NCBI GenBank assembly: GCA_036023115.1
Contig: JAYKKT010000047.1
Span: 2,354,001 to 2,418,000 of the forward strand
DNA length: 64,000 nucleotides
Direction of reading: 5' to 3'
Origin: Brasenia schreberi
Taxonomy: Eukaryota; Streptophyta; Magnoliopsida; Nymphaeales; Cabombaceae
In this document: positions 4,290 through 62,140 of the stretch, one piece after another
Layout: every line of letters starts with the position of its first letter
Numbering within the stretch: the first letter of the stretch is position 1
Program-made: the position numbers and the translations under genes
The notes under the pieces: model-generated
Database searches by the model: none
What the model saw: the letters and a program-made list of their open reading frames with translations, nothing else
Told to the model about the DNA's origin: nothing

Positions 4290-5480
4290 TATATCTCCTT
4301 GGCATGAATCCAAATTGGTTCTCCGTTATACGCGATACTTGTCTTAACTTAAGTTTGATAATTTTTTTCCCATAATTTTATAGTATGGCTCTTGATACCC
4401 CGATAATTCGCACAATTCTAAATGTCTCCCTTTTTCTTATATATGGGTATAAGTGTACTCGCTCTTCATTCCTTAGGTATCTTTTGGTTTCTCCATATTT
4501 CATTAAATAGTCTTGTAAGTCAAGTGATTCTTTTCTTTCCTAAAATTTTTCGTAATTCGCACAATTCTAAATGTCTCCCTTGTTCTTGTATATGGGTATA
4601 AGTGTACTCGCTCTTCATTCCTCAGGTATCTTTTGGTTTCTTCATATTTTATTAAATAGTCTTTTAAGTCAAGTGATTCTTTTCTCTCCTAGGATTTTTC
4701 ATAATTCGCACAATTCTGAATGTCTCCCTTGTTCTTGTATATGGGTATAAGTGTACTCGCACTTCATTCCTTAGGTATCTTTTGGTTTCTCCATATTTCA
4801 TTAAATAGTCTTGTAAGTCAAGTGATTCTTTTCTCTCCTAGGATTTTTCAAACTTCTGTAGAAATATTGTCCGGTCCTACAAATTTACCATCCTTTATAT
4901 GTTTAAGAGTCTCTTTGACTTCATTATTTTGAATACGTTGGTAGAAATTGTGGTTTATATACTTTTCTGATTTGGCTAACTCTCTTAAGATAATACTAAC
5001 ATCTTTGTTTTCATTAAAAAAATATATAAATAATTTTTCATCTATTTTTGTATATCATCATCTGCCACTAGAATTTTCTCATCCTCATCTTTGATGCATC
5101 TAACAAAATTAAGATACTAGTTTTCTTATCTCTAGCCCTAACTATCCTAAAAATATTTCTTTTACCCTCTTTTCAGTTGAGATTTCTATATTAGATATTC
5201 CCAAATTTTAGCTTTTGCTTCACCACGGTTTTTTCACTTCTTTCTTTGCTTTCTTGTAAGCCTCTAAAGTTTCACTAGTCTTCTTAGCATAATGTAATTT
5301 GTAGCATGCCCTCTTTGCCTTGATTTCATCTTGCACCACTTCACTCCACCAAGCTTATTTTTGTGCTGGAACACTTCCCTTAAATTCACCTAACACATCT
5401 TTCGCTACTTTCCTAATATGTATAGCCATATTGTTCCACTTCCACATATCACAAGGTGAACCAACATAATTTCAAGCATC
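4290..5480 (-). mobile_element. RTE LINE fragment with an internal triplication
   Basis: Corresponds to roughly 32380-33240 of the longer LINE in this window (between reverse transcriptase and endonuclease). A 149-bp unit that occurs once there is present three times here, at 4404-4552, 4553-4701 and 4702-4850. No intact ORF. Confidence 0.85.
4404..4850 (-). repeat. 149-bp LINE segment in three tandem copies
   Basis: Each unit starts TAATTCGCACAATTCT and contains TATGGGTATAAGTGTACTCG and TTTTTGGTTTC-type blocks. Copies differ by a few substitutions, so the duplication is not very recent. Confidence 0.88.
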
Positions 5481-5800: not shown

Positions 5801-5865
5801 AGAACCCATTTGGGTTCGATCTGTGAGTTGAAGATGTTAAAACCTTTTTTTTTACTTTATCTTAG

Positions 5866-5906
5866 CCGACCCCGTCTAGTATGGGAAAAGGCTTAGTTGT
5901 TGTTTA
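5866..5906 (+). mobile_element. Ultra-short RTE-tail insertion (41 bp)
   Basis: Flanked by a perfect 16-bp duplication TTTTACTTTATCTTAG at 5850-5865 and 5907-5922. The insert is only the LINE 3' end, from CCGACCCCGTCTAG to GGCTTAGTTGTTG. Two more inserts with nearly the same 5' boundary are at 42604-42645 and 61454-61502. Confidence 0.92.
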
Positions 5907-6034
5907 TTTTACTTTATCTTAGTTTTAAATTACACATCAGTTCACACCAATCTCGACGACCTATCGTTGTTTTTCCCAAAAAAAAGTTGGATTCAAAAGT
6001 TGAAATTGGCATCAACTTAAACTGATCTTGTTGT

Positions 6035-6777: not shown

Positions 6778-6962
6778 CCGACGAGAATTGAGCACAATGG
6801 CAACCGAGCCCACTTAGTACAGGAGAAGGAAAGGTTTTGGTTTTATCACACACGACCCAGAAACCTACCCGACGAGAGAATCGAGCATAGTGGCGATCAA
6901 CGATCTATGTAGTCGAGCCCACTTAGTACAGGAGAAGGCATGGTTTTGGTTTTACCACAAAG
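6778..6962 (+). repeat. Imperfect tandem duplication upstream of the QWRF gene
   Basis: Two direct copies start with CGACGAGA (about 6778 and 6870). They share GAGCCCACTTAGTACAGGAG followed by GTTTTGGTTTTA. The second copy carries about 20 extra bases (GATCTATGTAGTC region). It sits 300-500 bp before the proposed start codon, where promoter elements would be expected. Confidence 0.7.
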
Positions 6963-10200: not shown

Positions 10201-13200
10201 TTCACCTTCTATGACATGAAACACTTAATTGTAAGCTTGCAAGAAGAATTTGAATTTGTGCTAGCAGATGACAATATGCTCTTGAGCACTCCAAAAAAAA
10301 TGAAACGAAAATTACTTTACAGGGATGCGAAGAAAGGTAGTATGTATAGAAGAAAACAGTAATTGTGGACAGAATTGGTGAGTAATCATTATATGTACAG
10401 TGGATGCTATGCACTCTACCCAAAAATGCAGAGTAGAGTGCACCATTTTGCAAAAGTAACCATGCACATGTGATCTTCATATCCAAAAATCTTAGATTCA
10501 ACTATTTATATGCTTTTGTTGGTAGTAGACCAGATTTTACAAGGGTTTGAACAATTTTAATGGTTTTGCCTTTTAAAGTTAAAACATAATCATTACATTT
10601 GAAAAAATGTGATATGCACATATATAGCATTTCCATGTTCTTTTGGCATTCCAAATGCATTTCTACGACTAGGCTTGCATTGGACAATAGTTTGAGGGCT
10701 GGAGTTTTACTTGAGTACACAAGTCTTCTCCCTAATATAGTTACATTTGTTAATTACTTTTATGATAAGTGTTTTTGTGATGCCAACATGAAATTCATTA
10801 AACTCGAGTTATTCCTTTACTTTGCAAATGTTGTACTTGAATGTTGCTGATACTTAGATTTTCTGCTTAAATTTCATTGAATTGTGCGTGTATGTTTCGG
10901 GCCTGCCATTTTTCTTTATTCAAGTTCTTTTAATTCAATGGATCTTGTGAATTAAAATAGGCAATTATTCAGGTAAACGATGCTCTCTAACCATGTGCAT
11001 GGTATTGAGTGATATAGGTACCTTATCTTGATGAGTGGGCTTTGTTGGAGGAAGAGCATTCTTCCTGCTTATCTGGTGCTATTGATGCTCTACAGAGTAA
11101 AACTATTCGTGTTCCAGTTACAGATGGCATAAGGGTATGTTTCACATTTGTTCTTGAAATGTAACGGAAGAGTTTCAACTTTCACGTGTGTTTGTGTATC
11201 TATCGTATGTTGCTCCTCATGTGGACTCATTATAACAGAAGAAATAAAAATTCCCACCATGTTGAAATTCTCTTAATGATTTAGATTAGTTATTTCAAAA
11301 GATGTGCTTAATAGATATCATTTGAAGGCTATGAATTTCTGATTCTTATATAACGCATACAGTTCCCACATTTTCTTTCTTGGAGTTATGGTTTGGTCTG
11401 GTGGGGGAGAAAGGGAACTTTAAAAACAACTAACAACAACAACAACTAAGCCTTTTCCCATACTAGACGGGGTCGGCTACATGGATTCTTTGTTTCCACA
11501 TATCCCTATCGTGTGCCATGTTAGCAGTTAACTCCCAATAAGCTAGATCATTCTTTATTGTTTCTTTCCAACACTTTTGTGGTCATCCTCTACCTCTTTT
11601 AATACTTTCCAAATTTAGTTTTTCTAACCTTCTTACAGGTTCTTCTTTTGATCTTCTTTCTATATGTCCAAACCATCTTAAACGATGTTCTCTCATTTTA
11701 TCCTCTATTGGTGCCACTCCTAATTTGTTTCTAATAACCTCATTATGTATACGGTCTTTTCTTGTATGACCACTCATCCATCTCAACATCTTCATTTCTG
11801 TCACAGACATCTTTTGTACATGTTGTTGATTAACTGCCCAACACTCAGAACCATAAAACATGACAGGCCTAATTGCTGCTCTATAATATTTACCTTTTAA
11901 TTTTAATGGTATCTTCTTATCACAAAGAATACCTGATGCTCCTCTCCATTTTAACCAACCAGCATTAATTCTATGTTTAACATCTCCATCAATTCTTCCA
12001 TCACTCTAAAAAATTGACCCTAGGTATTTAAAACTTTCCTTTGGGGGAATGCAATGTGTGCCAATTTTAATTTCTATGTCCTCTGAAGTAACCAAATGAT
12101 CAAACTTACATTCCATATATTTTGTCTTTGTTCTACTAAGTCGGAGGCCTTTGCTTTCTAATGTTTCTCTCCATAGTTCCAATTTTCTATTAACTTTTTC
12201 CTTAGACTCCTCCACTAATACAATGTCATCTGCAAATAACATACACCAAGGTACTTCATCTTGATTATGTTTTGTTAGCTCATCCATCACCATTATAAAT
12301 AAGTATGGACTTAAAGTTGATCCTTGATGTAACCCAATATTAACTTCAAAGAAGTCTGCCGTTCCTTCATGAGTCCTCACACATGTTTTTGCACCATCAT
12401 ACATGTCTCTTATAAGGTTAATATATGTCAATGGGATACCTCTTTTTTCCAAAGTTCTCCAAAGAACCTCCCTCGGTACCCTATCATAAGCTTTTTCTAG
12501 ATCAATAAATATCATGTGAAGGTCTTTCTTTTTTGCTCTAAAATGTTCCATAAGACGTCTCAAAAGGTGAATCGCTTCAATAGTAGATCTGCCTGAATCC
12601 AAATTGGTTCTCTGTTGTACTTGATACTTGTCTTAACCTACGTTCGATAATTTTTTCCCATAATTTTATAGATATGTCATAGAAAGGGAACTTTAAAACA
12701 GGGGGAAAATTCCTAAAAAGATAATATGCATGGGTTATGTATGCTTTGAATTTTGATAATCCCCAAATTTGAGCTTCTCTCTATTATTGTCTACTGCTAC
12801 TTTGCATATTTCCTCCTTTTGTGTTTCCCGTTTAAACTTTTGCAGACATCAGTCATAACTTGAATGGGGCTTGGATATGTTCTTCTGACCCAAACAATAG
12901 TTAGAATTCTTTTGTTAGCATATGTTGATTCTAACAGCCTCAGATGGATCATGTCAACCAGTTTGCGTGCTTTGTGAGGACCTAAAACTTGCTGAGAGTA
13001 AAAATGACTTCCAAAAGCTGAGAATTTGCCATGAAAAGTGTTTTATGGGCATCCAAAGCAAACTTCCTACCTAAACTGAATTACTTGATCGTATTCTCTC
13101 AAAACCAGAGAATTACCACACACACCCCCAAAAAAAAACTTCCCTTCGCTCTCTTGATCAATCAACAATTATGGTTTTGGCCATTTTGTTTGTAATTCCA

Positions 13201-15403
13201 AAATTTCTTCTGTTGCTTCCATCATGGTATAGATTTTCTCTATTACCCTCATAAGAGGACAAACTCCGCTCATGTAAGGGATCACCCTTTCATGGTCGGT
13301 CTCAAGCCCGAATAAAGGAGGAGGTTACGTTAGGCTTCCGACAGCCAGCGTAAAACTTTGTCGGACTTATTTACCATGTATTCTACAAATTATGATAGGG
13401 CTCTGTGGAAACAAAGAATCCATGTAGCCAACCCCATCTAGTATGGGAAAAGGCTAAGTTGTTATTGTTGTACCCTCATTAGAGGACAACTACTAGGTTA
13501 CATGAGTCTGTGACCATCCGTTGATTGATTTCCCTTTCTAATCTGGTCCGATCTAGGCACATTTCCCTAAAGTAATTATCAGTTTTGATTTTATTTAAGA
13601 ACTTGCTGCTAGTTATTTTTTTGTGCAAGTCTTGTTGTGCATTTATCTTTTTGTAGTGTCTTATTAGTAACAAAATCCCAAGTAAATGTTAGTTCTGTAA
13701 CTTTTTCAGGTAGATATCCAATCCATGAAAGAAACCTTGCTTTCAGCATCAAACGTGATGCACATGATGGATTTGTTCATGTTTTCTTTACTGCCAAAGG
13801 TGACAACAACTTCATCATATGTTTCGGAAACTTTTGTTGATTGTTTCTCATTAAACTCATCTATGATCCTGAATAGTTCTATCTGTTATCTTGTAGAAAT
13901 AGATAGATGTATTCATTTTAGATCTGGGGAAAGGTTTTCCTAATCCACTTCATACAGCACTAATTCTTGTCTATCTAGTTTGAATAATTGAATATTTTCT
14001 TGTATATGATAGGGAGTGTCATCAGTGAATTTGTTTTTAGGAAGTTGGGATTCATGTCACCCCAGCTTCTTTTTCTCATAGGTGGACCCCAGCAACTTGG
14101 AGCAGGGCCTCTCTTTGATTATCTCCAGAAGAGGGTTTTGGTATTAGTGAACAGCTGCCCTACGTTAAAGAAAAAGTTAGAGCCGGTGGATGATTTACCG
14201 TTGTTGACAACAGAATGGGCTGGTCATTTTGGACTGTTGCTTTGAAGATGCTCAAGTTGCAGGATGTGTTAAGTAGGAACATGCTTGAAGAACTTTGGAC
14301 ATGGTTATGCTTTTGTAAAATACCATAACTTTGGACATGTGTTAAGTAGGAACAGAATGGGTCGGTCATTTTGGCTGATTTTTTTGGTTAGTTTGAGGGA
14401 GAAAAATAAAAGGGTCTCTTAGGGGATGGTTCTTCTTGGAAGTAGTTTGATCTTTTGATTATTCACAAACGCATTAGCCTTGGGGATGTTTTTGATATGA
14501 TCAATTTGTAGATCTTTCTTCTCATGTAAGTAGTGCATCCTCTTCATGCTTTACAGTAAACTTTTCTTGTGAGAGAGAGAGGCCTTATTCAATTGGGTTT
14601 GGAATAGTTGCAACTGGAGGTTGCCACTATTTTTCTTTTCAAATGGTTTGGATTGAGTTGGAAACCAATTTTTTACTTCAGTTGCTTCAAGCGGGTAATA
14701 AAATGAGTTCAGATTTTGTGTCCTGCAGCATTTCTCTTGCATGTAAACGCACATTTTGGGCAATCTCTCCTCTAAAATATGGATTTTTACTGAGAACATT
14801 TTCATCTAAACTAGATAAAGTCTGATCCATAATGGAGCTGAGTAGAGCTGAGAACTTTCATGTTATTACACAGCTTGAAGGTTCAAATTAGCTGCCTTAC
14901 CATGAGCTTTCTTTGGTGCCAACAACCATTGTTATTTGTGGTTTCATATTTCTGAATGCTTGAGGTGAATTTATCAATACAATTTCTGTCTCTTTTCGTC
15001 CATGGTTGGTGAAAGTCTGTCATGGTGTTGAATGGAAAGTATTGCTTTGAATTTCTTTCTCTTACCTAGATTAGCATGATTAATTTACAGGTAGAAAGGC
15101 TTAATTGTTTTACCTCTGAACTTGCTGAAATCTTTGCACAAGAGAGTACACTCGTTGACGAATGTGGAGATCTACTGTCTACAATTGCAGCAATGCAGGT
15201 AAGGAAGGACTCTCTGGTTATGGAATTCGTTTCTCTCTCTTAGTTCCATGTTGATTTTGTCTGCCAAGATTTTATGTGGGATAACAAAGAGAAAGTGATG
15301 CAAACAGGCACAAGAGTCCAGCTATAGGGCGCATCTGACACAACTAAAGCAAGCAAGTATTGATGCCAAGAAAACAAGTCCGACAGTTCAAGAAATGGTT
15401 TAA
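7276..15403 (+). CDS. QWRF: QWRF motif-containing / augmin subunit 8-like protein, 7 coding exons
   Basis: Family members bind microtubules, and AUG8-type members belong to the augmin complex. Coding exons: 7276-7291 (inferred), 7575-9097 (or from 7608), 9574-9693, 11018-11134, 13710-13799, 15091-15198, 15308-15403; every junction is GT-AG and in phase. The product is about 678-689 aa. The signature QWRF lies at 9035-9046 within [13 protein letters not shown]. The N-terminal two thirds is Ser/Arg/Lys-rich and disordered, with a conserved [11 protein letters not shown] block near the start. The C-terminal exons give a helical region with [18 protein letters not shown] and [13 protein letters not shown], ending TVQEMV before TAA. 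No frameshift or stop was found. There is no ATG in the main frame before the residue encoded at 7628 (TTG), so the start must be upstream; ATG at 7276 (MSKRS) joins in phase. The family call is firm; the exact member and the start are less certain. Confidence 0.88.
11426..12680 (-). mobile_element. 5'-truncated RTE-clade LINE in a QWRF intron
   Basis: The element is flanked by a perfect 18-bp target-site duplication, AGAAAGGGAACTTTAAAA, at 11408-11425 and 12681-12698. On the minus strand it encodes a 198-aa open stretch of reverse transcriptase (12006-12602) with [17 protein letters not shown] and the catalytic LFADDIVL block, then a C-terminal part (11583-11861) with [14 protein letters not shown] and [10 protein letters not shown]. 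The 3' end is GGCTTAGTTGTTG-type with a short TTG repeat instead of poly(A), which is characteristic of RTE/BovB-like LINEs. The endonuclease domain is missing. The host exons on both sides are intact, so the insertion is tolerated as intron sequence. Confidence 0.93.
13262..13470 (+). mobile_element. Short LINE-tailed retroposon, copy 1 (QWRF intron)
   Basis: A 209-bp insert with an 18-bp duplication of TACCCTCATNAGAGGACA at 13244-13261 and 13471-13488 (one mismatch). The first ~105 bp are not LINE sequence. The last ~95 bp match the RTE 3' end found at 11440-11500 in the other orientation. The 5' part contains the hairpin TCCGACA...TGTCGGA. Copies 2 and 3 are at 41971-42175 and 61939-62140. 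Confidence 0.88.
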
Positions 15404-15705: not shown

Positions 15706-16271
<566 letters not shown>

Positions 16272-16980
16272 TAGTTAAAATTCAAATTAAAAAAAAATCT
16301 TAATACATTTCGGTGATGCAATAAATGCACCCCAATACTATTTGCTTTGTGACTTAATAACGGTCTCAACTATTGATCTTAAAGATTAAACAATTGAAAC
16401 CTTTAAAAGGATTAGATCATGGATGAGTGTGTGCATAAACTATTCTCTCTTCATATACTCAAATTTTGAAAGTTTAAACAAAATATGCTCCCTAAGTTGA
16501 ACCCGTGGGCTGAGCCCACTGTGTAAACATCAGCTATTCAACCACCCTAATCTTTTAGAACTTGCATGGAGCAGTCCAGGTTGGCGATTCAATAGAACTC
16601 AAACAGATAAGGGCTTTGAAGGTGCATAAGAAAGAGCTAATCAAACTGAATGAACCATCCAAAGTTTGGAAAACTTCTCAAGATCGCTAATAGCGACTTG
16701 ATTTTAGGACTTTCGGGGACATGCTAGAGGAAAGAAAATAAAACCCAAAGATGGGAACACCAAGAATCAACATGAATCAGCTTATGGCGCAGAAATTACT
16801 GTACCAATCCAAGTGCCCAATGGTCCTTCACATCAGCAAGATCGTTGTGCTTCCCACCATTGCGTATGCATTTCTGAGTGTTGCAGAAACGACCGAATTT
16901 ACTCGAAGGACTGTTGGGATGAACAGTTCCTAAAAAAGATTGACTTGAATTGATTCATGCCTGAGAGAAACATCAGCTGG
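16272..16980. other. Spacer between inverted-repeat arms, part 1
   Basis: Contains a 60-codon ORF at 16751-16933 without recognisable homology. Nothing else supportable. Confidence 0.4.
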
Positions 16981-17645: not shown

Positions 17646-18724
17646 ATCTCCCAAAATCCCATATTGCTTAATCTCTATCAGTATCTAGGTCCCACATTAA
17701 CTCCAAGAACACTAAACCCAGACTGATATTTATGGTTTGCGGCAATGTTGTAAAAAACATATTGGACCGCATGTTGCACGGGTTATGTTACATGATAAAT
17801 GCACCATATTGTATGACACTCGTGCGGAACTATTTTATGTAATTTGAAAATATTAAAAATGCAAAGAAAAAATTCAAAAATCATAAAAAGTTGAAAAGTG
17901 AAATTAATCAAACAATTAAGATAAGAAAATACAACCAAAAACACTAAATTATTGAATACGATACATGCACCTGGATCATGTCAAATGTTGTAAAGTGGTA
18001 TACCTATGAGAAAGAAAAGACAAAGCGGTTCTCTTCCGGCAAACTCAAGAACTGCGTAGAGTATACTTGATTTAGAAAATTTGGTCTAAATGCACTCCAA
18101 CTCTGGTTTTGGAAACAAGGCAAAACGCATCAATCCAAGCACAAAAAAGAGAGATAGGGCAACTGCCCAATATGGTGTCAACTTTGGTGCCCCGACCCTT
18201 TTGTTCTCCTCTTTATTTACAATTAAAAGATCACAAGACAAACTTCTTCATGGGCAACTTATTCAGATAACCAAGAAGTACCGAGAGCTGCAACAGCTGA
18301 AGGCTTTGGATTTACTGAGACACAATGAAACTTGAGAGACAATGGGGTTCGCTCCAAAATATCCGTTTGAATTGGAATCCCTTTCCCTAACATTCCGATT
18401 CTCATCTCTGACAAGAATCCGATTCACCTTCCTTTACTTTTTTTCTGATGCTTAATCTACCAGATGGAATTCGTTTCGCACCCCTTTCCCCAGTACCCGA
18501 TTCCCACATCTTTTCCCAGTAATGTGGATTCTTGGAAGCTGCATGGGACCCCATTCTGTTGGGAGCTGCTGAAGCTATCAGAGAATAGATTTGCTTCAGC
18601 AGCTCAATGGTCAGTGAGTTGACAATAATAGTACATTAGGAATTTAAAAATCCGAGGACTCATAAGCAGATGCATTCGGCATTTGGTCTTCCAAAATACA
18701 TTGCTTTCCGAGTTCTTTGATGTT
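17646..18724. other. Spacer between inverted-repeat arms, part 2
   Basis: No gene recognised. Contains an 81-codon ORF (18090-18335) without a known domain and a perfect short stem-loop at 18563-18605. Confidence 0.4.
18563..18605. repeat. Perfect 13-bp stem-loop
   Basis: Arms GAGCTGCTGAAGC (18563-18575) and GCTTCAGCAGCTC (18593-18605) with a 17-base loop. Bases outside the arms extend pairing weakly. Too short for a typical plant miRNA precursor. Confidence 0.7.
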
Positions 18725-19241
18725 CCTATCTCGCTAATCGGATGGCTGAAATCCTTGAGAATGTTTAAGCATCGATACGTATGGGCATTAACTAAGTTAT
18801 CTGTCTGTATATATACATATATAAAGATAGTAGTAATAATATATACTCAATCAAATACATGCTTAAATTTTTTCAAACATTTCTACTGTTTGATCTGTAC
18901 AATCAACCTTGGATATTTGAAATGAAAAAGTATATTGTATCCTTGTATATTCAATTAGAGAATAGAAAGTACAATGATACAATTTACTTTTTGATCTCTC
19001 TCTCTCTCTCTCTCTCTCTCGATATATATATATATATATATATATCGAGAGAGAGAGAGAGAGAGGGGGTAAGGGCAAAGTTCTAGTTAGTTCCCTAATA
19101 CGTTTGCTGTTGAGTACCAGATAATTGGTAAATTTCAAGCAGATTCCTTTCTCTTCTTTATGCGATTTCACCCGTGAACAAGCTGATTAGAGTTCAATAG
19201 GACAAATTTGGACTGGTAATTATCATTCTTTTTCACCATAA
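18725..19241 (-). repeat. Right arm of a long inverted repeat
   Basis: 517 bp, reverse complement of 15706-16271 with scattered substitutions. The CT-TA-GA tract is much shorter than in the left arm, which accounts for much of the length difference. The sequence matches on both sides of the microsatellite, so this is a true duplication and not chance low complexity. Confidence 0.93.
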
Positions 19242-30800: not shown

Positions 30801-33800
30801 AGTTTGATAATGCCTATAAGACTTTGGAATACATTAAGAAAAATCATTCTGAAGACGATTTTGTTTTCAAATAAATTTGATGAAAAAGATGATAATACTC
30901 AAACAAGGTTTCATAAGCATTTAGGAATATCACAATGAGATTTTTGATCTATTTAACTTAGAAGTTTTGACAAATTCGAAAAACTTAAAATATGGATGGA
31001 TGAGTTTCAAGAATATCTTAACAACCATTATTTTTTCTTGTTTATAAGAAGAATATGAGATGAATTTGAGAACATAAGATCAAATTTGATACATAGAAAA
31101 CTGAGATCCAAAAGATAAGAAATATTGACCAATTTAGTTATAGAATAAACTAGATTGTAAAATATAAGAGACAACAAAGAAGTGGTTCTTGCCGCATCCA
31201 CAAACAACAACAACAACAACTAAGCCTTTTCCCATACTAGACGGGGTCGGCTACATGGATTCTTTGTTTCCACAGATCCCTATCGTGTGCCATGTTAGCA
31301 GTTAACTCCCAATAAGCTAGATCATTCTTTATTGTTTCTTTCCAACACTTTTGTGGTCGTCCTCTACCTCTTTTAATACTTTTCAAATTTAGTTTTTCTA
31401 ACCTTCTTACAGGTTCTTCTTTTGATCTTCTTTCTATATGTCCAAACCATCTTAAACGATGTTCTCTCATTTTGTCCTCTATTGGTGTCACTCCTAATTT
31501 GTTTCTAATAACCTCATTATGTATACGGTCTTTTCTTGTATGACCACTCATCCATCTCAACATCTTCATTTATGTCACAGACATCTTTTGTACATGTTGA
31601 TGATTAACTGCCCAACACTCACAACCATAAAACATGGCAGGCCCAATTGCTGCTCTATAATATTTACCTTTTAATTTTAATGGTATCTTCTTATCACAAA
31701 GAATACCTGATGCTCCTCTCCATTTTAACCAACCAGCATTAATTTTATATGTACCATCTCCATCAATCCTTCCATCACTCTGAAAAATTGACCCTAGGTA
31801 TTTAAAACTTTCCTTTTGGGGAATGCAATATGTGCCAATTTTAATTTCTACGTCCTCTAAGGTAACCAAATGATCAAACTTGCATTCCATATATTATGTC
31901 TTTGTTCTACTAAGTCGGAGGCCTTTGCTTTCTAATGTTTCTCTCCATAGTTCCAATTTTCTATTAACTTTTTCCTTAGACTACTCCACTAATACAATGT
32001 CATATGCAATAACATACACCAAGGTACTTCATCTTAAATATGTTTTGTTAACTCATCCATCACCATTATAAATAAGTATGGACTTAAAGTTTATTCTTGA
32101 TGTAACCCAATATTAACTTCAAAGAAGTCTGTCGTTCCTTCATGAGTCCTCACACATGTTTTTGCACCATCATACATGTCTCTTATAAGGTTAATATATG
32201 TCAATGAGATACCTCTTTTTTCCAAAGTTCTCCAAAGAACCTCCCTCGGTACCCTATCATGAGCTTTTTTTAGATCAATAAATATCATGTGAAGGTCTTT
32301 CTTTTTTGCTCTAAAATGTTCCATAAGACGTCTCAAAAGGTGAATTGCTTCAATAGTAGATCTGCCTGACACGAATCCAAATTGGTTCTCTGTTGTACTT
32401 GATACTTGTCTTAACCTACGTTCCATAATTCTTTCCCATAATTTCATAGTATGACTCATTAACTTGATACCTCGATAATTCGCACAATTTTGAATGTCTC
32501 CCTTGTTCTTATATATGGGTATAAGTGTCCTTGCTCTCCATTCCTCGAGCATCTTTTGGTTTTTCCATATTTCATTAAATAGTCTTGTGAGCCAAGTGAT
32601 TCCTATTTCTCATAGTATTTTCCAAACTTTCTATAGGAATATTATATGGTCCTACCGATTTACCACCCTTCATATGTTTAAGAGCCTCTTTGACTTCATT
32701 CTTTTGAATATATCGATAGAAATTGTGGTTTATATACTTTCTGACTTGGTTAAATCTCCTAAACTAATACTAACATCTTTATTTTCATTAAAAAAGATTA
32801 TAAAAATTAGTTTTTCCATCTATTTCTTATATCATCATTTGCCACTAGAATTTTTTCATCCTCGTCCTTTATGCATCTAACATAATTAAGATCTTTAGTT
32901 TTCTTATCTCTAGCTCTAGCTATCCTAAAAATATCTCTTTCACCCTCTTTTGAGTTGAGTTTTTTATATAAGTCCTCCCAAATCTTAGCTTTTGCTTCAC
33001 TAACGGCCTTTTCGCTTCCTTCTTTGCTTTCTTATATGCTTCTAAAGTTTCATTAGTTTTCTTAGCATAATGTAATTTGTAACATGCCCTTGATTTTATT
33101 TTGTACTACTTCACTCCACCACCAAGCTTCTTTTTGTGCCGGTACACCTCCCTTAGATACCCCTAATACATCTTTCGCCACTTTCCTAATATGTATAGCC
33201 ATATTGTTCCACATATCACACGGTGTGCCAACATAATTCCAAACATCTCCTTAAGGACTTTCTGTTTAAATATGTCTTCTTTCTCCCTTTTGAGGTTCCA
33301 CCATTTAGTCCGAATAACTCGATGCACTCTTTTCTTCTTTGTCCATTTTTTTATTTGTAAATCCATAACTAAAAGTCGATGTTGGGTGGTTAAGCTTTCT
33401 CCTGGAATTACCTTACAATCTTTACAACACGCTCTATCTTTTTTTCTACAAATAAAGTAATCAATTTGTGTTTGTGATAAGCCACTCTTATAAGTAATTA
33501 AATGTTCATCTTGTTTTTTGAAGATTGTATTGACTATAAAGAGATCAAATGCCATAGCAAAATTTAAAATCTCCCTACCTTCCTCATTTATATCCCCAAA
33601 ACCAAAGTTTTCATGAATCTCTTGATATCCTAATGTCTCTTTACCGACACGTCCATTTAAATCTCCTCCTAAACATATCATCTCCCTTTGTAGAATCTTT
33701 TGAAACACCTTATCTAACTCTTCCCAAAAAATTGTCTTTATACTATCTTCTAGTCCTACTTGGGGTGCGTAAGTACAAATTATATTCAAAACCTCTGCTC

Positions 33801-36800
33801 CTAACAATAATTTCAACGTCATGATTCGGTCACCATATCATTGTATGTCTACTACACTCTCCTTTAAATCTTTATTTATGATAATACCAACTCCGTTTCG
33901 AGCCTTTTCTTTACCTGAGTACCATAATTTAAAACATGTATCCTCTATCTCCTTTGCTTTTTCTCCAACCCATTTTGTCTCTTGTAAACATAGAATATGA
34001 ATCTTTCTCCGAATCATAGTATCTACCACCTCCATTAGCTTACCGGATAATGTTACGATATTCCAAGAACCAATACGAATCTTATCATCTAGGACTAGTT
34101 TCCTTACCCCCCCCGCATCCGTCCATAATCAAAATGCGGAGACCCTCTCTGAAAATTACAGACAAAAATAATGAAGTAAACAGACAAGTCAAGGGTAATG
34201 TAATGTCTTGTCAAACAAGAGTTGATTTACCATTATTACAAGGAGAGTGCACATATCAAGACCATAAGTCCTCTCTTATTGAAGAGATACTCAAGTGACT
34301 GCCATTGACAACAAAGAAGAAGTGCTACCTTCAAGAATCAAAGCCTACATAGAAGAAATATTCAAAGAGAAGGCAAACATCTCCAGGTTGGCGTTATCAA
34401 CTTCTTTCAAAAATCAAGGTATGCCATAGTTTTTATACTCATGATGTTTCTTTTCATATAACAAATGAATATAAATTGTTAAACAACTGCACATAAGTTA
34501 GAAGTGTTTAGAGTCGATCGAACTAAGCTAGATGTTAAAGAAATTGATAACTTAAAAATAATTTCTTTAAAATACCACAAGCACGTTTTATACCATAATT
34601 AAATCTTAATATTCTCTCGGTTTCTCATATTTTTTATAATGATTGCATTGTTACCTCCTGTATGGTGATAATCTTATGTCGAATAAGGTGATTGGGCAAG
34701 GATATAAAAAAGTGGTCTCTACGTTATGGATAATTTAGCTATGTCAAATTTTGAAACACATGGAATTGTTTGTAATGAGTTTGGGCTTTGACACAAAAGA
34801 TTGGAGCATCTTATGTAAGCAAAACGAATAATTATTCATGGATAAAAATTAATGAAAAGAATGATTTCATTTGCAAATATTGTATATTTGACAAAAGACA
34901 ACATGCACCAATATCACAAAAAAATGCTTTCGAATTAGTGGACTCTGATGCTTGAGGACCCTCTCCTATACCCTCAAAAAAAGAAGTGACCTATGATGTT
35001 ATTTTTGTAGATGACTTCACTTGACACATATATACTTTTTGATTCAAATTAGAAGTCTTTAAAAACTTTTTAACTTTTTGAAAATGATCAAGGCTCAATT
35101 TGAAAACTAATATCAAGAATTTAAAAATCGACTCTAGTAGTGAATATCTCTCAAATGACTTCAAAAGCTATCTTTAAAAACATGGAATTTAGCATAAAAA
35201 AATCTTATACAAAAACTCTCTAACAAAATGATTTAACCGAAAGAAAACATAAACATGTTATTAAAACCAGTGTTGTTCGTATCGCACCGTGATACGTATC
35301 GTATCGTATCTACGATACGGGGGCCCGTATCGCAAGTGCGAGAGTATCGCACTGTATCGTGCGATACGGCCCGTATCGCACGATACGCCCTGGGAACCTT
35401 ATAAAGGGTCCCGGCCCGAGAGAAACCCGCGATTTTTCGCGGGTTTCCTCTCTCCTTTTGGGTTCTTCAAGCTCCCTAAGAGTCGGTTTTCGCCTCCTTG
35501 GTGTTCAAAGCTCTAAAATCGTGCCCTACGGTGTCCGTCCAAGTCTCCAAACTCGGATTTAGGTATATTTTTAATGTTTTTTTTCATTTTTTTCCTTTAT
35601 ATTTATTGTTTTTTGTGTTATTTCGGTTTTTTTTTTGAATGACCAAATATGAAGTAATTAAGTGTGTGTATACGATTTTTATTGCATTCATGAAGTGGGA
35701 GACACTCGATTTGAGTGTTATTTGAAGATTGGGGGATTTACGAAGTGCTTTTATTTTCAGGTTTTTGTTTGAATTAAAGTACTCCATTGAGATGGCAGGA
35801 AGGGGTGGTAGAGACTCATTCAAAGTCTGATGATCCGGCATGACAGTGGGGTATACCAGTTGAGGGTTCAAGGTTAAAAATCAGATGTTTATTTTGTGAA
35901 AAGGTGGTTAGTGGTGGAATTTCAAGGTTGAAACACCACCTAGCAGGAACCAGAAAAGAAGTTGCTCCATGCACAGGCAGAGTTAGAAGTGTGCCAGAAG
36001 GTATTAAATGACAATGCTTGCAGATGATTGAGAGCATACAGGAAAGGAGACAACAAAAGGATGATTTTCAGATGTGTGAAGAAGCTGATGATGCTACTGC
36101 CACTGGAGTTGGATTCACTGATAGTTTGCCTTCAGATGTTAGAACAGATATTGGTAGTATCAGTTCCCGAGCACCTAGCAGAGGAAAGAGGCTTGCAGCT
36201 GAAGACTTTAGAGGTGGCAGAAGAGAAAGTTCAGGAAGGAGTAGAGAAAGAGCTTGTTCTTCTAGCATACATTCGTTCTTTCTTCCTTCCACTACACCTG
36301 ATGCTCAGCCAGAAATTCGTGCTGCTATGGCTTCAGAACAACTGCACGATCAAGCAGACTTGCAGTAGGCAGATGGTTTTATGATGCATGCATTCCATTT
36401 AATGCAGCAAACAGTTTTCATTTTCAAGCAATGGCAGATGCAATTGCTAACATTGGTCCAGGATACAGGATGCCCTCTTATCAGAAGTTGAGAGGGAAGA
36501 TATTAGATCAGACCGTGATTGAAGTACAGCAATACTGTTCGACTTTGAGACAATCGTGGAAGGAAACAGGATGCACTATCATGGCAGATGGATGGACCGA
36601 TAGACGAGGAAGAACATTGCTAAACTTTCTTGTATATTGTCCTAAAGGACTCATGTTTTTGAGATCTCTAGATATGTCAGAGAAGAGGCACACTGCAGAG
36701 ATCCTACGAGAGGAATTTGATAAGGTTATACAGGAGGTTGGGCTAGAAAATGTAGTCCAATTGATTACAGATAATGCAGCTAACTACAAAGTAGCTGGAA

Positions 36801-39800
36801 AGGAGTTAGCTGATATTTATGGGACTTTCTACTGGACACCATGTGCAGCCCATTGTTTAGATCTCATCCTCGAGGACATTGGTGAGATGGATGAAATAAA
36901 GGCAGCAACTGAGTGTTGCCAAGATATTACAAAATTCATTTACAACCATGCATTTGTTTTGTGTATGATGAGGAGATACACAGAAGGTGCAGAGCTTCTT
37001 CGCACAGCTGCAACTCGGTTCGCAACAAACTTCTTATCTGTACAGAGTATTGTGAGACAGAAGCAAGCTTTAAAGAGAATGTTCTCCTTAGATGAGTGGC
37101 AACAATTTGCAGAGTTGCCACAAAACAGAAGGAACAGAAAGTTAAATGAGATTGCAGAAACGGTTTTTAGAAGTTCATTTTGGAATGCATGTATCAGATT
37201 ATTGAAAATTACTTGTCCTTTAGTGAAAGTTTTGAGATTGGCTGACAGCGATGAGAAACCATCTATGGGCTACCTTTATGAAGCCATGGACAGGGCAAAA
37301 GAAGCGATCAGAAATAACTTTAATGAAAAAAAAAGAGATTATGTGCCCGTGTGGAAAATAATTGATAGTAGATGGAATAAACAATTGCATCAGCCTACTA
37401 TCTAAACCCATCATTGAGGTACTCAACAACCTTCAAAAAGGATGGTGAGGTTAATCGAGGAATCATTGAATGCATCGACAGATTAGTCCCTGATGAGAGC
37501 ATAGTAGATGCGATACATCGAGAGATGGAGATATATGATAATGCTCTTTACTTGATGGGTTTCCCTGTTGAAATTCGCAACCGCTCTACGATGCGTCCAG
37601 GTACATTGTTTATTTTCATATTTAAGTTGCATCTTATATTACTGTGTATTATTATGTCTCTAATGCTTATATTTTTTTTACAGATGTTTGGTGGAACAGG
37701 TTTGGAAGTGATTGTCCAAACCTTAGAGATTTTGCAGTTAGAGTCTTAAGCCAAACCTGTAGTGCAACAGGTTGTGAAAGAAATTGGAGTGTTTTTTAAC
37801 ACATCCATACAAAAAAGCGCAACAGGTTGGAACACAAAAGGCTTAATGATTTGGTTTATATTCGTTGTAACATGCGCCTTCGTGAAAGGTAATGTTGTAT
37901 TACTTTCAAATTTTCAATTCGATATTATTTAACTTTAGTTTTCAATTGTTAATATTACTTACTAATTGTTTATCTTTGTTTGTGTCGTAGGCAATTAAAA
38001 AAAGTAAATAGAGAAGAAAGTCAATTCGATCCAATAAGTTTGGATAATTTTGAGATATTAGAAGATTGGGTTATGGAAGACACTGAAGAAAATGCCCTCC
38101 TAACAGAAGAAGACGTTGCCTGGATTAATTTGGAAGGAGCGCAACAACATTATGGAGATGAAGAATTTGATTTTGAAGAAGAAGGTGTGGGCATGACTGA
38201 TGATGATGAGGATCTGCAACAAGAAGATGAAGATTATTTAGTTGATGATCTTGATTACAATTTATAAAATGTAACATTATATGTAACTGTAGTGTACTGT
38301 AAAGTGTAAATTATGTCTGTATTTTATTTTTTAGATTCAAAATATGTAAATTTGGATGCAATTGTTCAATGTTGAATGCTCAATATGTACTAAACTTACA
38401 TTATATGAATTTAAAGCAATTATCAGATTTTTCTTGATTTTTTCCTGATTTTTTTTTTACTATTTTTTATTAATTTTTAATTAATTTTTGTATTATTTTA
38501 ATATTAAAGTACGATACGATACGATACGATACGCCCGTATCGTGGAGCCCAACGATACACGATACGATACGCGTCAGACATCACTGATTAAAACTACTAG
38601 AACCCTATTGATTGCAAGTAAAATTCCTAAATACTTAGGCTGGAGTCGCATTGAAAAATTGTATTCAAATGAACCTAGTTATAATTGGTTAAAATTACTT
38701 GATGTAAGTGTTATATTTATGCGGATAAAAATATTTATACGGATAAAAATATGTGTACGGATAATAATGATAAATTAGGACCCAAAGCTATTGAATGTCT
38801 TTGTTGACTATGGTATTGACAAAAAAGGTATAGATGTTACAACTGAAAAGAAGATAAATTCTATGTGTCTAGAGATGTCAAATTTATTAAAGACGAGTAT
38901 TATTATTATGAAGATGAGTAAAAAAAACACCCAAGATAGTTATATTTTTTGGATGAAATCTCTAAATAACAATGAAAAAACACAAGACGAAAGTATGGTC
39001 TAACTAGAGTGTGAACATAGAGATCAAGAAGCTAGAGAAGAAATCCTAAGACCTTTTGAACATTATTATGTAAGAAGAAATAGAAAAAATGATAATATCT
39101 CAAGCAAAAGAGTCATAAAACCTCCACAAAGATTTGTATCTTATGAAACATTTCAACCACAACGATGAGTTAAAAGCTTTAGAAAAGAATAGTACTTAGG
39201 ACATTATGCCTAAACCCAAAGAAAAAAAATCACGGGGTGTAGGTGGATCTGTAAAATCAAAATGCATAGTGATTGATCTATTGAAAGATAGAATGCAAGA
39301 CTTCTAGGTAAAGGTTACTCATAAAAATAAGGGATTGACTACGAAGAAGTTTCTGTTCATGTTGCTCGTATGACTATTGTTCGCATATTGATTTTTGTGC
39401 TAATAGAAACTGAGACATATATCAATTGAATGTTAAAAATGCTTTTTTGAATGGTAATCTTTGTGAAAAAATATATAGCTATTCTTCTGAGACTCAATGC
39501 TCCACGTGATTATGTTCTTAGACTAAAAAAGGTATTATATGGACTTAAACAGACAACTAAGGCTTGGTTTGATAGATTTGAAAATTTTATGCATGCACAA
39601 AATTTTTGCTGAGGTTATATTGACATTGCTTTGTTTGTAAGAATAATTGATGCAAGTATCGTGATCCTACTTATGTAGGTAGATGATATGATTTGGAAGT
39701 GATGAGAATGGGATATTGCAAATCAAAAGAGATATTCATGAAGAATTTGATATGAAAGATTTGAGTGTACTTAGTTACTTCTTGAGAATATAAGTAACTC

Positions 39801-42800
39801 GTAATAACAAAGATTATTTTATGTCACAAACAAAATTTGTTAGTAATGTTACCATGTCATGATTGACTGATGACAAAAAGGTGAACACGTTGGAGGTGAT
39901 TGGGACCAAACTAAGAAGTACAGATAGAGAAAAGCTAGAATATCTCACTACTTATAGACAAATGATATAAGATTTAACATATTTTACCATCACTCGACCA
40001 TATATAACACATGTAGTACATGTGGGCAAGTCAATTTCAACAAGCTCCCATCAGTATCCACATGAGTTCAGTTATGTGTATTTCAAAATACATAAAGGAT
40101 ACACTTGAAATGAGGATCATTCTAACATCATCATCTTCCCTTAAATTAATTGTCTATACTAATGTTGATTGGGGTAGGGATATCAATGATAGACATTTCA
40201 CTACTCGATTTTGTGTGTTTTTAGGTGACTCACTAATCTTGTAAAAAGGAGCATATGGTGTCCCTATCATCTACGAAGATAGAATATAGAGTCATGGACC
40301 CTACAGCAGCAGAGATATCTTAGATCACCGAACTTCTAGTAGACATGGAGATTATTCTCTAGAACTCTATAGAATTGCTTTGTGACAATAAAAGTGCCAT
40401 GTATATTGCTTCGAACAATATATTTCATGAACAAACCAGGCACATTGAGATGGATTGCCACTATATTCGAGAGGAATGCTTGAAGAAAATGTTGACTTTA
40501 TGTTATGTTCATTCAAAGCTACAACTAACATATTTCTTCTTGTGAGCCCCTAGATTTGTGTTGACAAACTTTCGGTATATAGACCACACGTTTGAGTGGA
40601 GGCATTAACTTATAATAGGAAAGTTGGGCCTTTAGGGCCCAATAGGTCCATCGACATGGGCCAAGTTGGATTGTCCCTAACGGCCAATCAATCCCCCCGT
40701 TGAGAACTTCCATAAATAGAGGATGTTGTGCATTTAATAAATCAAAGTTTTTTTGTGCTCACTGACTTGTTTGATATTGTGCATATTCGGTTTGACTTAT
40801 GCACCAAGTGTTTGGTAATTTGACTTGTTGAAGATCTTGTGTGATCATTGGTGCTTAGCTTTGTGGACATTATTGACTACATCGTAGTGCTAATTTCACA
40901 ATCATATGCATGACAAATGTTCAAATCAACCACACCAACCTCAAATAAACTTTATTTGTTCCTCGCATAAAACATTTTCTTGCATAATAAGAAAGCAAAT
41001 TACTTATATAAATTTGTACCAGGATTTTTACCTTTATTTCTTCCAAAGCTTGTTTGTCTTCACCAACAGGAGAATAGTATAAATGTCATAAACAGTAAAA
41101 TAGCTGTCATAACCCACACTCAATTCAATACAGTTTTTCCTGTTCTGTGCATGAGCAGATAAGGGCGTGTGTGGGGCATCTAAAATCATTTGACATGAAA
41201 CAAAACAGTAGTAATGAATGTAAATCCGAAAGCACAATGTGTAATGGATGCCAATGAGAAAATTGAGTAGAGAATATCTTTCTACACTTATTTGAGGCAC
41301 AATTAGAGGACAAATTCAACTTTCAACTCTGATTGTTGCCAATTAGGTTCAAACAAGCAGAAACCAAAAAGTAGAACGTCAATGCAAATATATAAGTTGC
41401 CTCAACAAAGAAAACTCCAAACAGAGAATACAGCAAAACCAATTCCTTGAGAAGGTTATTACAACTGGAATATGTCTTTCTCCTAGATAACCTCTCCATT
41501 GAGAATGGCACAGAAAGGAGCATGATATGCACCATTAAACAACCTATATTTCACTCAAAGATGAAGAAAAGTAAAAGATCAAAATTTGTATTCATTTGTC
41601 TACAGAACTAGGGTAAATAAAAATATGGACGAACAGAAATTGCAGCATATTGCCTTTATCATTTGGAAAAAAAGTTTGAAAGGTCAAAAATACCATCTGC
41701 CAGTATCAAGGTGATCACATAAGTTCTCACAAGAGCTAGGTTTTGAATACTCTGCAGGCATGATGAAAACAACCATAACAATATCTGCACTCAAGGTTTA
41801 CCCTTTTACTGTCTTCAAAACTTGTTCTTTCTCTGATAGACTTCCTCTCCGAGCTGACCAAGGAACTTCAGCCTTGATAAGAGCAGGAGCAGCTCCCACC
41901 TAACAAAACGTACACAACAGATAAGCTCAAAGAATTAGAAATTAACCAAAGCAGTATATATAGAGACACAAACAACAACTAAGCCTTTTCCCATCTAGAT
42001 GGGGTCAGCTACATGGATTCTTTGTTTTCACAGAGCCCTATCATAATTTGTAGAATCCATGGTAGATAAGTCCGACAAAGTTTTACACTCGTTGTCGGAA
42101 GCCTAACGCAACCCTCCTCTTTTATCGGGGCTTTGGACCGGCCATGCAAGGATAATCCCTTACATGGACGGAGTTTATAGAGACACACATAGTAAAATTC
42201 TGTGTTATGTGTATCCCTATGTATCGTAGCATATTGTATTATGGGGAATCCCGATAAGATAAGAGGGATGTATTGCACAGAGGCAGATTATCAGCATGTA
42301 TCATGGTTGTATCCCATGATAAAGGGGTGTATCACCTGTAGCCCCTGGTTTATAAAGAATAGCATTTTTTTCTTTTTGTTCAATGTTTCTGTTTTTCTAT
42401 GAAATAGTAATATAACTTTGAGCCAATTTTCCCTACCCAAATTCAGTAACACTCATTGGAGTGAACTGTTAGTACCTCGATATGCTGCAACAAAATTAGG
42501 ATTTTGCTGAAGAAAAGAAAATCTTGTTGGTTGTTGTGACAATTGTCACTTCAAGAACAAAATGTGGAATTAAGACCCAAGACTTTTAGGGTCATTAAAT
42601 CATACAACAACAACTAAGCCTTTTCCCATACTAGACGGGGTTGGCTAGGGTCATTAAATCATCTAATTTGTTAATTCTCCATTTGACAAACTAAGTGTTT
42701 ATTAAATACATCCATAGGAACTAACATTAGCATAAATACAACCATAAGAACACATTGTAATATAAGATATCACTCGTTGTACCTACACTATTAGCAGAAA

Positions 42801-61192: not shown

Positions 61193-61453
61193 GAGTCTTT
61201 CTCTTCCTTCGTGGCGATCACAAACCTCTTTGTTTATGGGTACCCACGCTTAAATTGCTCGATCCTGGATTTGGACCCACTGGGCAATGTCCAATTTGTG
61301 CAGAACATCCAAGTAAGATCTGCACTCCCACCTTAAGGCTCTGCATACCTGGCTCGAAAGCCTTAACTCAATAACAGGGGTGGCTCAAGGGTAAAGCCTT
61401 TAGGCCTCCGAAACTTTTAGGTCCCGGATTTTTAATCCACAGTTAATAGTATA

Positions 61454-61502
61454 CAACAACAACAACTATTAAGCCTTTTCTCATACTAACGGAGTCGACT
61501 CA
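61454..61502 (-). mobile_element. Ultra-short RTE-tail insertion (49 bp)
   Basis: Perfect 15-bp duplication ACAGTTAATAGTATA at 61439-61453 and 61503-61517. The insert on the minus strand runs from GTCGACTCCGTTAG (after four extra 5' bases) to a TTG-repeat tail, with an extra AAT in the tail part. Confidence 0.92.
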
Positions 61503-61739
61503 ACAGTTAATAGTATAAGTCTCCAAATTTTAAGGCCAGAATAAGGTTCAATTTTAGTATTTTGTTTTAGGCCTGAACTTGTGACCAGCTACTTCCGCTC
61601 AATATTTTATTGAATACGCCAAAAATTACAAAGGGATCCGAGGAGTCACTTGCACTGATGAACCTCGCGATAAGCAGATCATCTCTCATTCCGAGTATAT
61701 GGTCGATATAGATCTATCGAAATAATTAGAACTTAAATT

Positions 61740-61938: not shown

Positions 61939-62140
61939 AACTCCGCCTATGTAAGGAATCACCCTTTCATGGCCGGTCCCAAGCCCGGAAAAAGGAGGAG
62001 GGTTGTGTTAGGCTTCCGACAGCCAGCGTAAAACTTTGTCGGACTTAACATGGATTCTACAAAAAAAAAAAACAAAGAATCCATGTAGCTGACCCCATCT
62101 AGTATGGGAAAAGGCTTAGTTGTAGTAGTAGTAGTAGTAG
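61939..62140 (+). mobile_element. Short LINE-tailed retroposon, copy 3
   Basis: 202 bp with a perfect 17-bp duplication TATATTTTTCCGGGTTA at 61922-61938 and 62141-62157. Same unique 5' part, hairpin and LINE tail as copies 1 and 2. Here the terminal repeat is (GTA)n instead of (TTG)n, and an A-run lies at the junction of the two parts. Confidence 0.93.

Follow-up and report, generated by a model that had tools for sequence, protein, structure and literature searches.

The stops behind LINE 5′ truncation are generally regarded as scattered. A premature change to second-strand synthesis has been proposed as a cause (PMC7617806), and two joining pathways at LINE 5′ junctions, one by annealing and one direct, are set out in PMC4245944. 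The closest described systems are the RTE-clade LINEs of flowering plants, which are marked by TTG tails according to PMC3747384, and which share with the elements described here an RT domain, a TTG-type 3′ repeat, a very short 3′ UTR, and many 5′-truncated copies with target-site duplications (TSDs). In the same paper, the tobacco TS SINE and RTE-1_Stu have a common 3′ end and TTG repeats. Angiosperm SINEs carry a 37-bp 3′-end Angio-domain (Seibt et al. 2020, as reported in PMC9033089). Outside this clade, recognition of a stem-loop by LINE proteins is known from zebrafish ZfL2-1 and ZfL2-2, and in these and in UnaL2, all of the stringent type, the 3′ stem-loop is a probable handle for the LINE protein (PMC4176376). 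In platypus U6-L2 chimeras, the RT quits a short L2 3′ segment early and continues elsewhere (PMC4476161).

The window analysed here, a 64,000-nt stretch of a Brasenia schreberi contig, resembles these systems in several respects and differs in others. Its SINE and LINE share about 75 nt of tail, like the TS/RTE-1_Stu pair, whereas its micro-inserts hold the hairpin unit only, with no SINE body. The unit TAGCC...AGTTG is, like the Angio-domain as far as that source presents it, 37 nt long and 3′-terminal in the window SINE, a likeness of length and place only. Where the platypus RT switches to another RNA, the end here joins the target. UnaL2, ZfL2-1, and ZfL2-2 belong to another LINE clade, and inserts ending at the stem-loop are not described in the available part of PMC4176376; similarly, the accessible parts of PMC3747384, PMC2887409, and PMC13295347 do not describe a discrete hairpin-foot truncation peak for RTE-clade plant LINEs. 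In the literature searched, we found no description of LINE truncations peaking at the foot of a 3′ hairpin, although most subscription papers lay outside it and an earlier report is possible. The parts are of known kinds, and the hairpin-defined truncation peak is unreported in that literature.

Parent elements and the tail hairpin

The following LINE and SINE copies were identified in the window:

31183-34306, minus strand: LINE copy of about 3.1 kb, within a 13-bp candidate TSD
31217-31253, minus strand: 37-nt hairpin unit TAGCC...AGTTG of this reference LINE copy, with T(−17) at 31253 and TATGGG from 31236
11426-12680, minus strand: 5′-truncated LINE copy, 1255 bp, 18-bp TSD
41971-42175, minus strand: SINE copy, 12-bp TSD, with about its last 75 nt common with the LINE
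61939-62140, plus strand: SINE copy, 17-bp TSD
13307-13471, plus strand: a further SINE copy of this family, for which no TSD defines the ends

An RT domain (RVT_1, E 2e-17) was detected in the ORF at 32091-32609 (minus strand) of the 3.1-kb copy; a 224-aa fragment upstream of it (33163-33837), examined for an endonuclease in this one broken LINE copy, had no Pfam match. Like plant RTE LINEs, the element ends in (TTG)n and has a very short 3′ UTR. Judged by its RT domain, TTG tail, and short 3′ UTR, the parent element appears to be an RTE-type LINE. The SINE family (near 13.3, 42.0, and 62.0 kb) has a 3′ end of about 75 nt in common with it.

Tail positions are numbered from the T of TATGGG (position 0), so that TAGCCGACCCCGTCTAG spans −17 to −1. 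The predicted RNA fold of the tail combines an outer stem, AGCC:GGCU, with an inner stem, CCCGU:AUGGG; it closes at A(−16):U(13) and leaves T(−17) unpaired (pairing probability 0.05-0.07), with a predicted energy only modestly under that of shuffled sequences (z −1.64). Since the LINE reading frame stops at the TAG at 31237-31239 (−3 to −1), the hairpin overlaps the gene end. The tail is very abundant in the 1.055-Gb assembly, where a genome-wide search gave 43,788 places at most 3 mismatches from a 35-nt tail pattern; the 23-nt core TATGGGAAAAGGCTTAGTTGTTG occurs 28,767 times without mismatch, both counts being lower bounds.

Two diverged tails of the TAGTCGAGCCCACTTAGTACAGGAGAAGG type, at 6801-6843 and 6910-6952, perhaps belong to another LINE subfamily. 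An old LINE copy at 4403-4856 holds three 149-nt tandem repeats, with a further match at 32475-32630.

Three micro-inserts with a common 5′ end

BLAST returned 11 tail matches in the window with E < 1e-7, the best weaker match being 27 nt long. Three of the 11 are micro-inserts:

5866-5906, plus strand: micro-insert 1 (41 bp), from hairpin tail (TAG)CCGACCCC to TTG tail; it reappears among the listed genome-wide pattern matches as G000:C47:2359851-2359885
5850-5865, plus strand: micro-insert 1 TSD, 5′ copy, 16 bp
5907-5922, plus strand: micro-insert 1 TSD, 3′ copy
42604-42645, minus strand: micro-insert 2 (42 bp)
42646-42662, minus strand: micro-insert 2 TSD, 5′ copy, 17 bp
42587-42603, minus strand: micro-insert 2 TSD, 3′ copy
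61454-61502, minus strand: micro-insert 3 (49 bp), diverged tail
61503-61517, minus strand: micro-insert 3 TSD, 5′ copy, 15 bp
61439-61453, minus strand: micro-insert 3 TSD, 3′ copy

Because the TSDs (16, 17, and 15 bp) are perfect and unlike one another, these are three separate insertions, as the first-pass annotation of this window had concluded. That annotation had also given them a common start at (G)CCGACCCC; the common 5′ end is confirmed, whereas the site moves 3-4 bases upstream, to T(−17). The TSD ends overlap the LINE by TAG in micro-insert 1 and by TA in micro-insert 2, so that either could start anywhere from T(−17) to C(−14), CCGACCCC being the 3′-most reading; micro-insert 3 has a diverged start about 4-6 nt upstream of CCGAC. 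Given this overlap, T(−17) of TAGCCGACCCC is the most suitable position for the shared 5′ end; it lies one base beyond the predicted hairpin stem. The annotation had proposed looking for an RNA stem end, and the predicted stem foot, A(−16), adjoins the insert start.

Start positions in two samples

We mapped LINE start positions in two samples, both drawn from the first contigs of the assembly only. Sample 1 comprised 100 places listed for the exact 23-nt core (L009-L108), in which inserts shorter than the core are invisible; nine SINE copies, chimeras, and internal deletions (L013, L020, L022, L030, L043, L051, L052, L084, and L085) were set aside before counting. Sample 2 comprised the last 51 of 100 listed places matching the 35-nt pattern (after C16:3284407; L121-L171), with none set aside; it needs an intact GCCGACCCCG, so that starts are visible only from about −15 in the upstream direction. 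The combined sample held 142 copies (91 + 51).

The distribution is not broad and peakless: starts are sharply concentrated at T(−17) of TAGCC. Starts numbered 4 in bin 0 to −8, 2 in −9 to −15, 8 in −16 to −18, 1 in −19 to −25 (L161, at −22, with no TSD), 0 in −26 to −50, 6 in −51 to −100, 6 in −101 to −200, and 8 in −201 to −337, the 20 starts over −51 to −337 being spread out. The rate over −101 to −337, about 5e-4 per nt per copy from starts defined by BLAST without a TSD check, predicts 0.21 starts in −16 to −18 against the 8 seen (39-fold, Poisson P = 7e-11), and the earlier judgement that random truncation was unlikely holds up. P is 9e-8 when this bin is restricted to its 6 TSD-backed starts (L026 and L128 being the two without). 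The bin was chosen after sample 1 had been read, whereas sample 2 came later and by itself has 4 of its 51 copies starting at −17.

The map also contains a diffuse excess of even shorter inserts that was absent from the first-pass annotation, with 6 starts over 0 to −15 against 0.73 expected; TSDs flank three of these and are lacking from L074, L078, and L098. The truncation rate upstream is about 40 times below that of the peak and several times below that of the hairpin interior, the 3′ flank of the peak being known from the two samples alone. A pattern for starts 3′ of TATGGG had 744 matches, most of the 100 listed being, by eye, tails with small internal indels. When 12 hand-picked from this list were fetched, 3 were insert-like, with starts at about +4 (L109, 9-bp TSD), +2 (L112, 13 bp), and +1 (L113, 17 bp), and 9 were indel copies or unclear.

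Thirty 3-kb loci (L009-L038) contained five extra tails; the second copy in L029 is a TSD-backed insert starting near −17, and that in L022 starts near −50, with a TSD recognised by eye. The −17 micro-insert of L131 lies, by eye, within an antisense copy of the same LINE and has a 17-bp TSD.

A genome-wide peak and its controls

A start pattern of four non-LINE bases, eight free bases, and an intact TAGCC tail had 425 matches across the genome, against 0 for a reversed control pattern. Among the 100 matches listed, 79 no longer share the LINE base at −18, and just 10 agree with it for at least 3 bases upstream of −17, the pattern that starts lying almost all at −17 would give. Twenty additional places, next in listing order (L172-L191), were examined in a TSD test: TSDs end at most 4 nt from −17 in 14 of the 20, against 0 of 180 displaced control windows, and the other 6 lack a TSD close to −17 at the threshold applied. 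When every end position between −240 and −5 was scanned, stray matches scoring at least 9 turned up twice (L173 at −175 and L187 at −100), so the TSD caller is not noise-free. Most insert TSDs here are 12-20 bp; a TSD peak of 10-12 bp is given for RTE-clade elements in PMC4245944.

A control pattern placed 8 nt further upstream had 291 matches. Of the 100 listed, 74 are still element-like over −32 to −26, many in an A-rich form, AAAAAAACAAAG, interpreted as a SINE variant; the other 26 are possible starts, 6 of them exactly at −25. Scaling from the 100 listed matches with assumed base frequencies, and with match counts that are lower bounds, we estimate that about 1,345 copies start at −17, compared with about 46 at −25 and 22 per position across −25 to −33, a roughly 30-fold deficit at the upstream control site. 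A SINE-like variant in which AAAAAAACAAAGAATCCATG replaces the usual GTGGAAACAAAG is common in this control list, and a similar A run occurs in the window copy at 62.0 kb.

The three window inserts could in principle be coincidences, or the survivors of a selective loss of long inserts, short ones being less harmful and perhaps retained more often. Length selection, however, should not divide 42-nt from 60-90-nt inserts so sharply, and the peak recurs in two further sets of places and genome-wide. Chance or ascertainment, which we rate as extremely improbable, is refuted by the two-sample counts, the genome-wide pattern, and the TSD test. The truncation peak is real, strong, and sharply placed, and truncation at this site is not random.

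At L188, a micro-insert and its TSD are immediately followed by a second tail, from TAGCC, after the same 16-bp flank, so that the locus either was duplicated in tandem or received an insertion twice.

Junctions and template RNAs

The junction table comprises 23 TSD-backed junctions near −17, with the diverged window insert 3 and the within-hairpin starts left out. Eight are direct joins exactly at T(−17), nine share 1-4 bases with the target, including window inserts 1 (3 bases) and 2 (2 bases), and six have 1-3 extra bases. The shared bases raise the idea that trimming or annealing at a target TAG gives cDNAs of various lengths a common start that is only apparent. At least 3 bases are indeed shared at 5 of the 23 junctions, or 4 of 22 against 0.4 expected once L188, with its second tail alongside, is excluded. 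Yet the eight direct joins have no shared bases and six junctions have extra ones, and since those direct joins fall exactly at T(−17), shared bases do not set the site. As the sole cause, microhomology is largely refuted and in our view highly doubtful; annealing at TAG stays as one joining route. A T stands just before TAGCC in 52 of 100 inserts listed and is the last TSD base in 7 of the 8 direct joins, a possible preference of second-strand cleavage.

The same table bears on the idea that cleavage or trimming, perhaps through a 5′-3′ exonuclease halted by a hairpin-bound protein, shortens LINE or SINE RNA as far as the hairpin, so that a 3′ fragment of about 40-50 nt, with hairpin and tail retained, is copied and the RT runs off at −17. 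Run-off predicts the direct joins (8/23) and the extra bases (6/23), the latter counting to that extent against the RT exit favoured below, and the sharpness of the end (79 of 100 listed matches unlike the LINE at −18) agrees with it.

The base at −6 informs on the template. It is A in 11 and G in 9 of the 20 fetched inserts (L172-L191), A in 6 of 6 SINE copies, and G in 70 and A in 13 of 85 other copies, a set that still takes in L029 and the set-aside L013, L084, and L085. The excess of A in the fetched inserts over the other copies (11/20 vs. 13/85, Fisher P = 5e-4) weakens to 11/24 (P = 0.004) when the four sample-1 inserts at −17/−18, all with G, are included. These data suggest that both LINE RNA and SINE RNA serve as templates. 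Because both base types occur, the micro-inserts look like ordinary products of LINE and SINE RNA, and a self-propagating micro-unit, a version of the discrete unit raised in the first-pass annotation, finds no support: the TSD-backed micro-inserts consist of tail hairpin and repeats only, with no SINE body upstream of the tail. The SINE-like A could also point to an influence of small-RNA abundance under template processing, an argument that the four G-bearing sample-1 inserts weaken.

A search for chimeras, with a second RNA between TSD and TAGCC, in five TSD-less copies (L026, L074, L078, L098, and L128) gave little: four of the five had no far candidate, and for L026 the search returned only a 10-nt match from 32 nt past its core, plus a 9-nt match. 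Template switching at −17 is therefore not demonstrated.

A proposed RT exit after the hairpin

Because truncation here is not random, TPRT often ends just past the copied hairpin. An end past the 5′ side of the stem points to release after copying, a template ending there, or folding of the cDNA; a plain structure pause would be expected on the 3′ side, the first that the RT encounters, and stops there would give inserts too short for detection here. The RT stop and the processed small RNA template suggested in the first-pass annotation are both plausible on these data. We favour, at a probability of about one half, micro-inserts made through TPRT by RTE-type LINE machinery, with first-strand synthesis ending once the 3′ hairpin has been copied. 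The templates would be LINE RNA and probably tail-sharing SINE RNA. The RT, presumed by analogy with the zebrafish LINEs to bind this hairpin, may grip the 37-nt unit as an RNA handle, and copying the handle would break the contact. The complex would then either release, leaving an insert of 40-50 bp, or pass into stable elongation, comparable to the escape of RNA polymerase from a promoter. The cDNA end would attach to the target in one of three ways: directly, through 1-3 extra bases, or by annealing where bases are shared. The raised failure within the hairpin fits trouble over the first ~40 nt of synthesis.

A processed template would likewise account for an end just outside the 5′ side of the stem, where a structure pause is not expected, but by itself it does not explain the excess of starts within the hairpin; we consider it possible, if on balance unlikely. 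The third route, in which the fully copied hairpin folds in the nascent cDNA and strips itself from the template like an intrinsic terminator, agrees with an end falling where the full inverted repeat is copied. However, the stem has only 4 + 5 pairs, with an interruption, and the RNA:DNA hybrid is likely the more stable, which makes this route improbable.

Under the favoured RT exit, the presumed RNA handle of the enzyme fixes one stop. About 1,300 genomic copies with an intact tail are estimated to record this stop, and they offer a natural means of assaying TPRT over its first 40 nt. The peak also offers a concrete, testable route by which SINEs gain LINE tails. More speculatively, the 37-nt tail hairpin might act as a functional cassette, with an RT exit built into its 5′ foot and SINE tails born there, an idea that we put forward as tentative and rather doubtful. 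If it were true, exit into target DNA would yield micro-inserts, perhaps the smallest regular retroposons, exit onto another RNA would weld exactly the 37-nt unit to a new body, and it would be explained why many angiosperm SINE families have just a 37-bp 3′ domain in common. The window SINE alone is no proof of this, because its LINE-derived part extends to about −51, not −17.

Other features of the window

A 367-aa frame at 36302-37405 resembles a hAT-type transposase. Long inverted repeats at 15706-16280 and 18716-19241 are 92-98% complementary, lie about 2.4 kb apart, and contain CT/TA microsatellites in both arms; the pair looks like a fold-back or terminal-inverted-repeat element.
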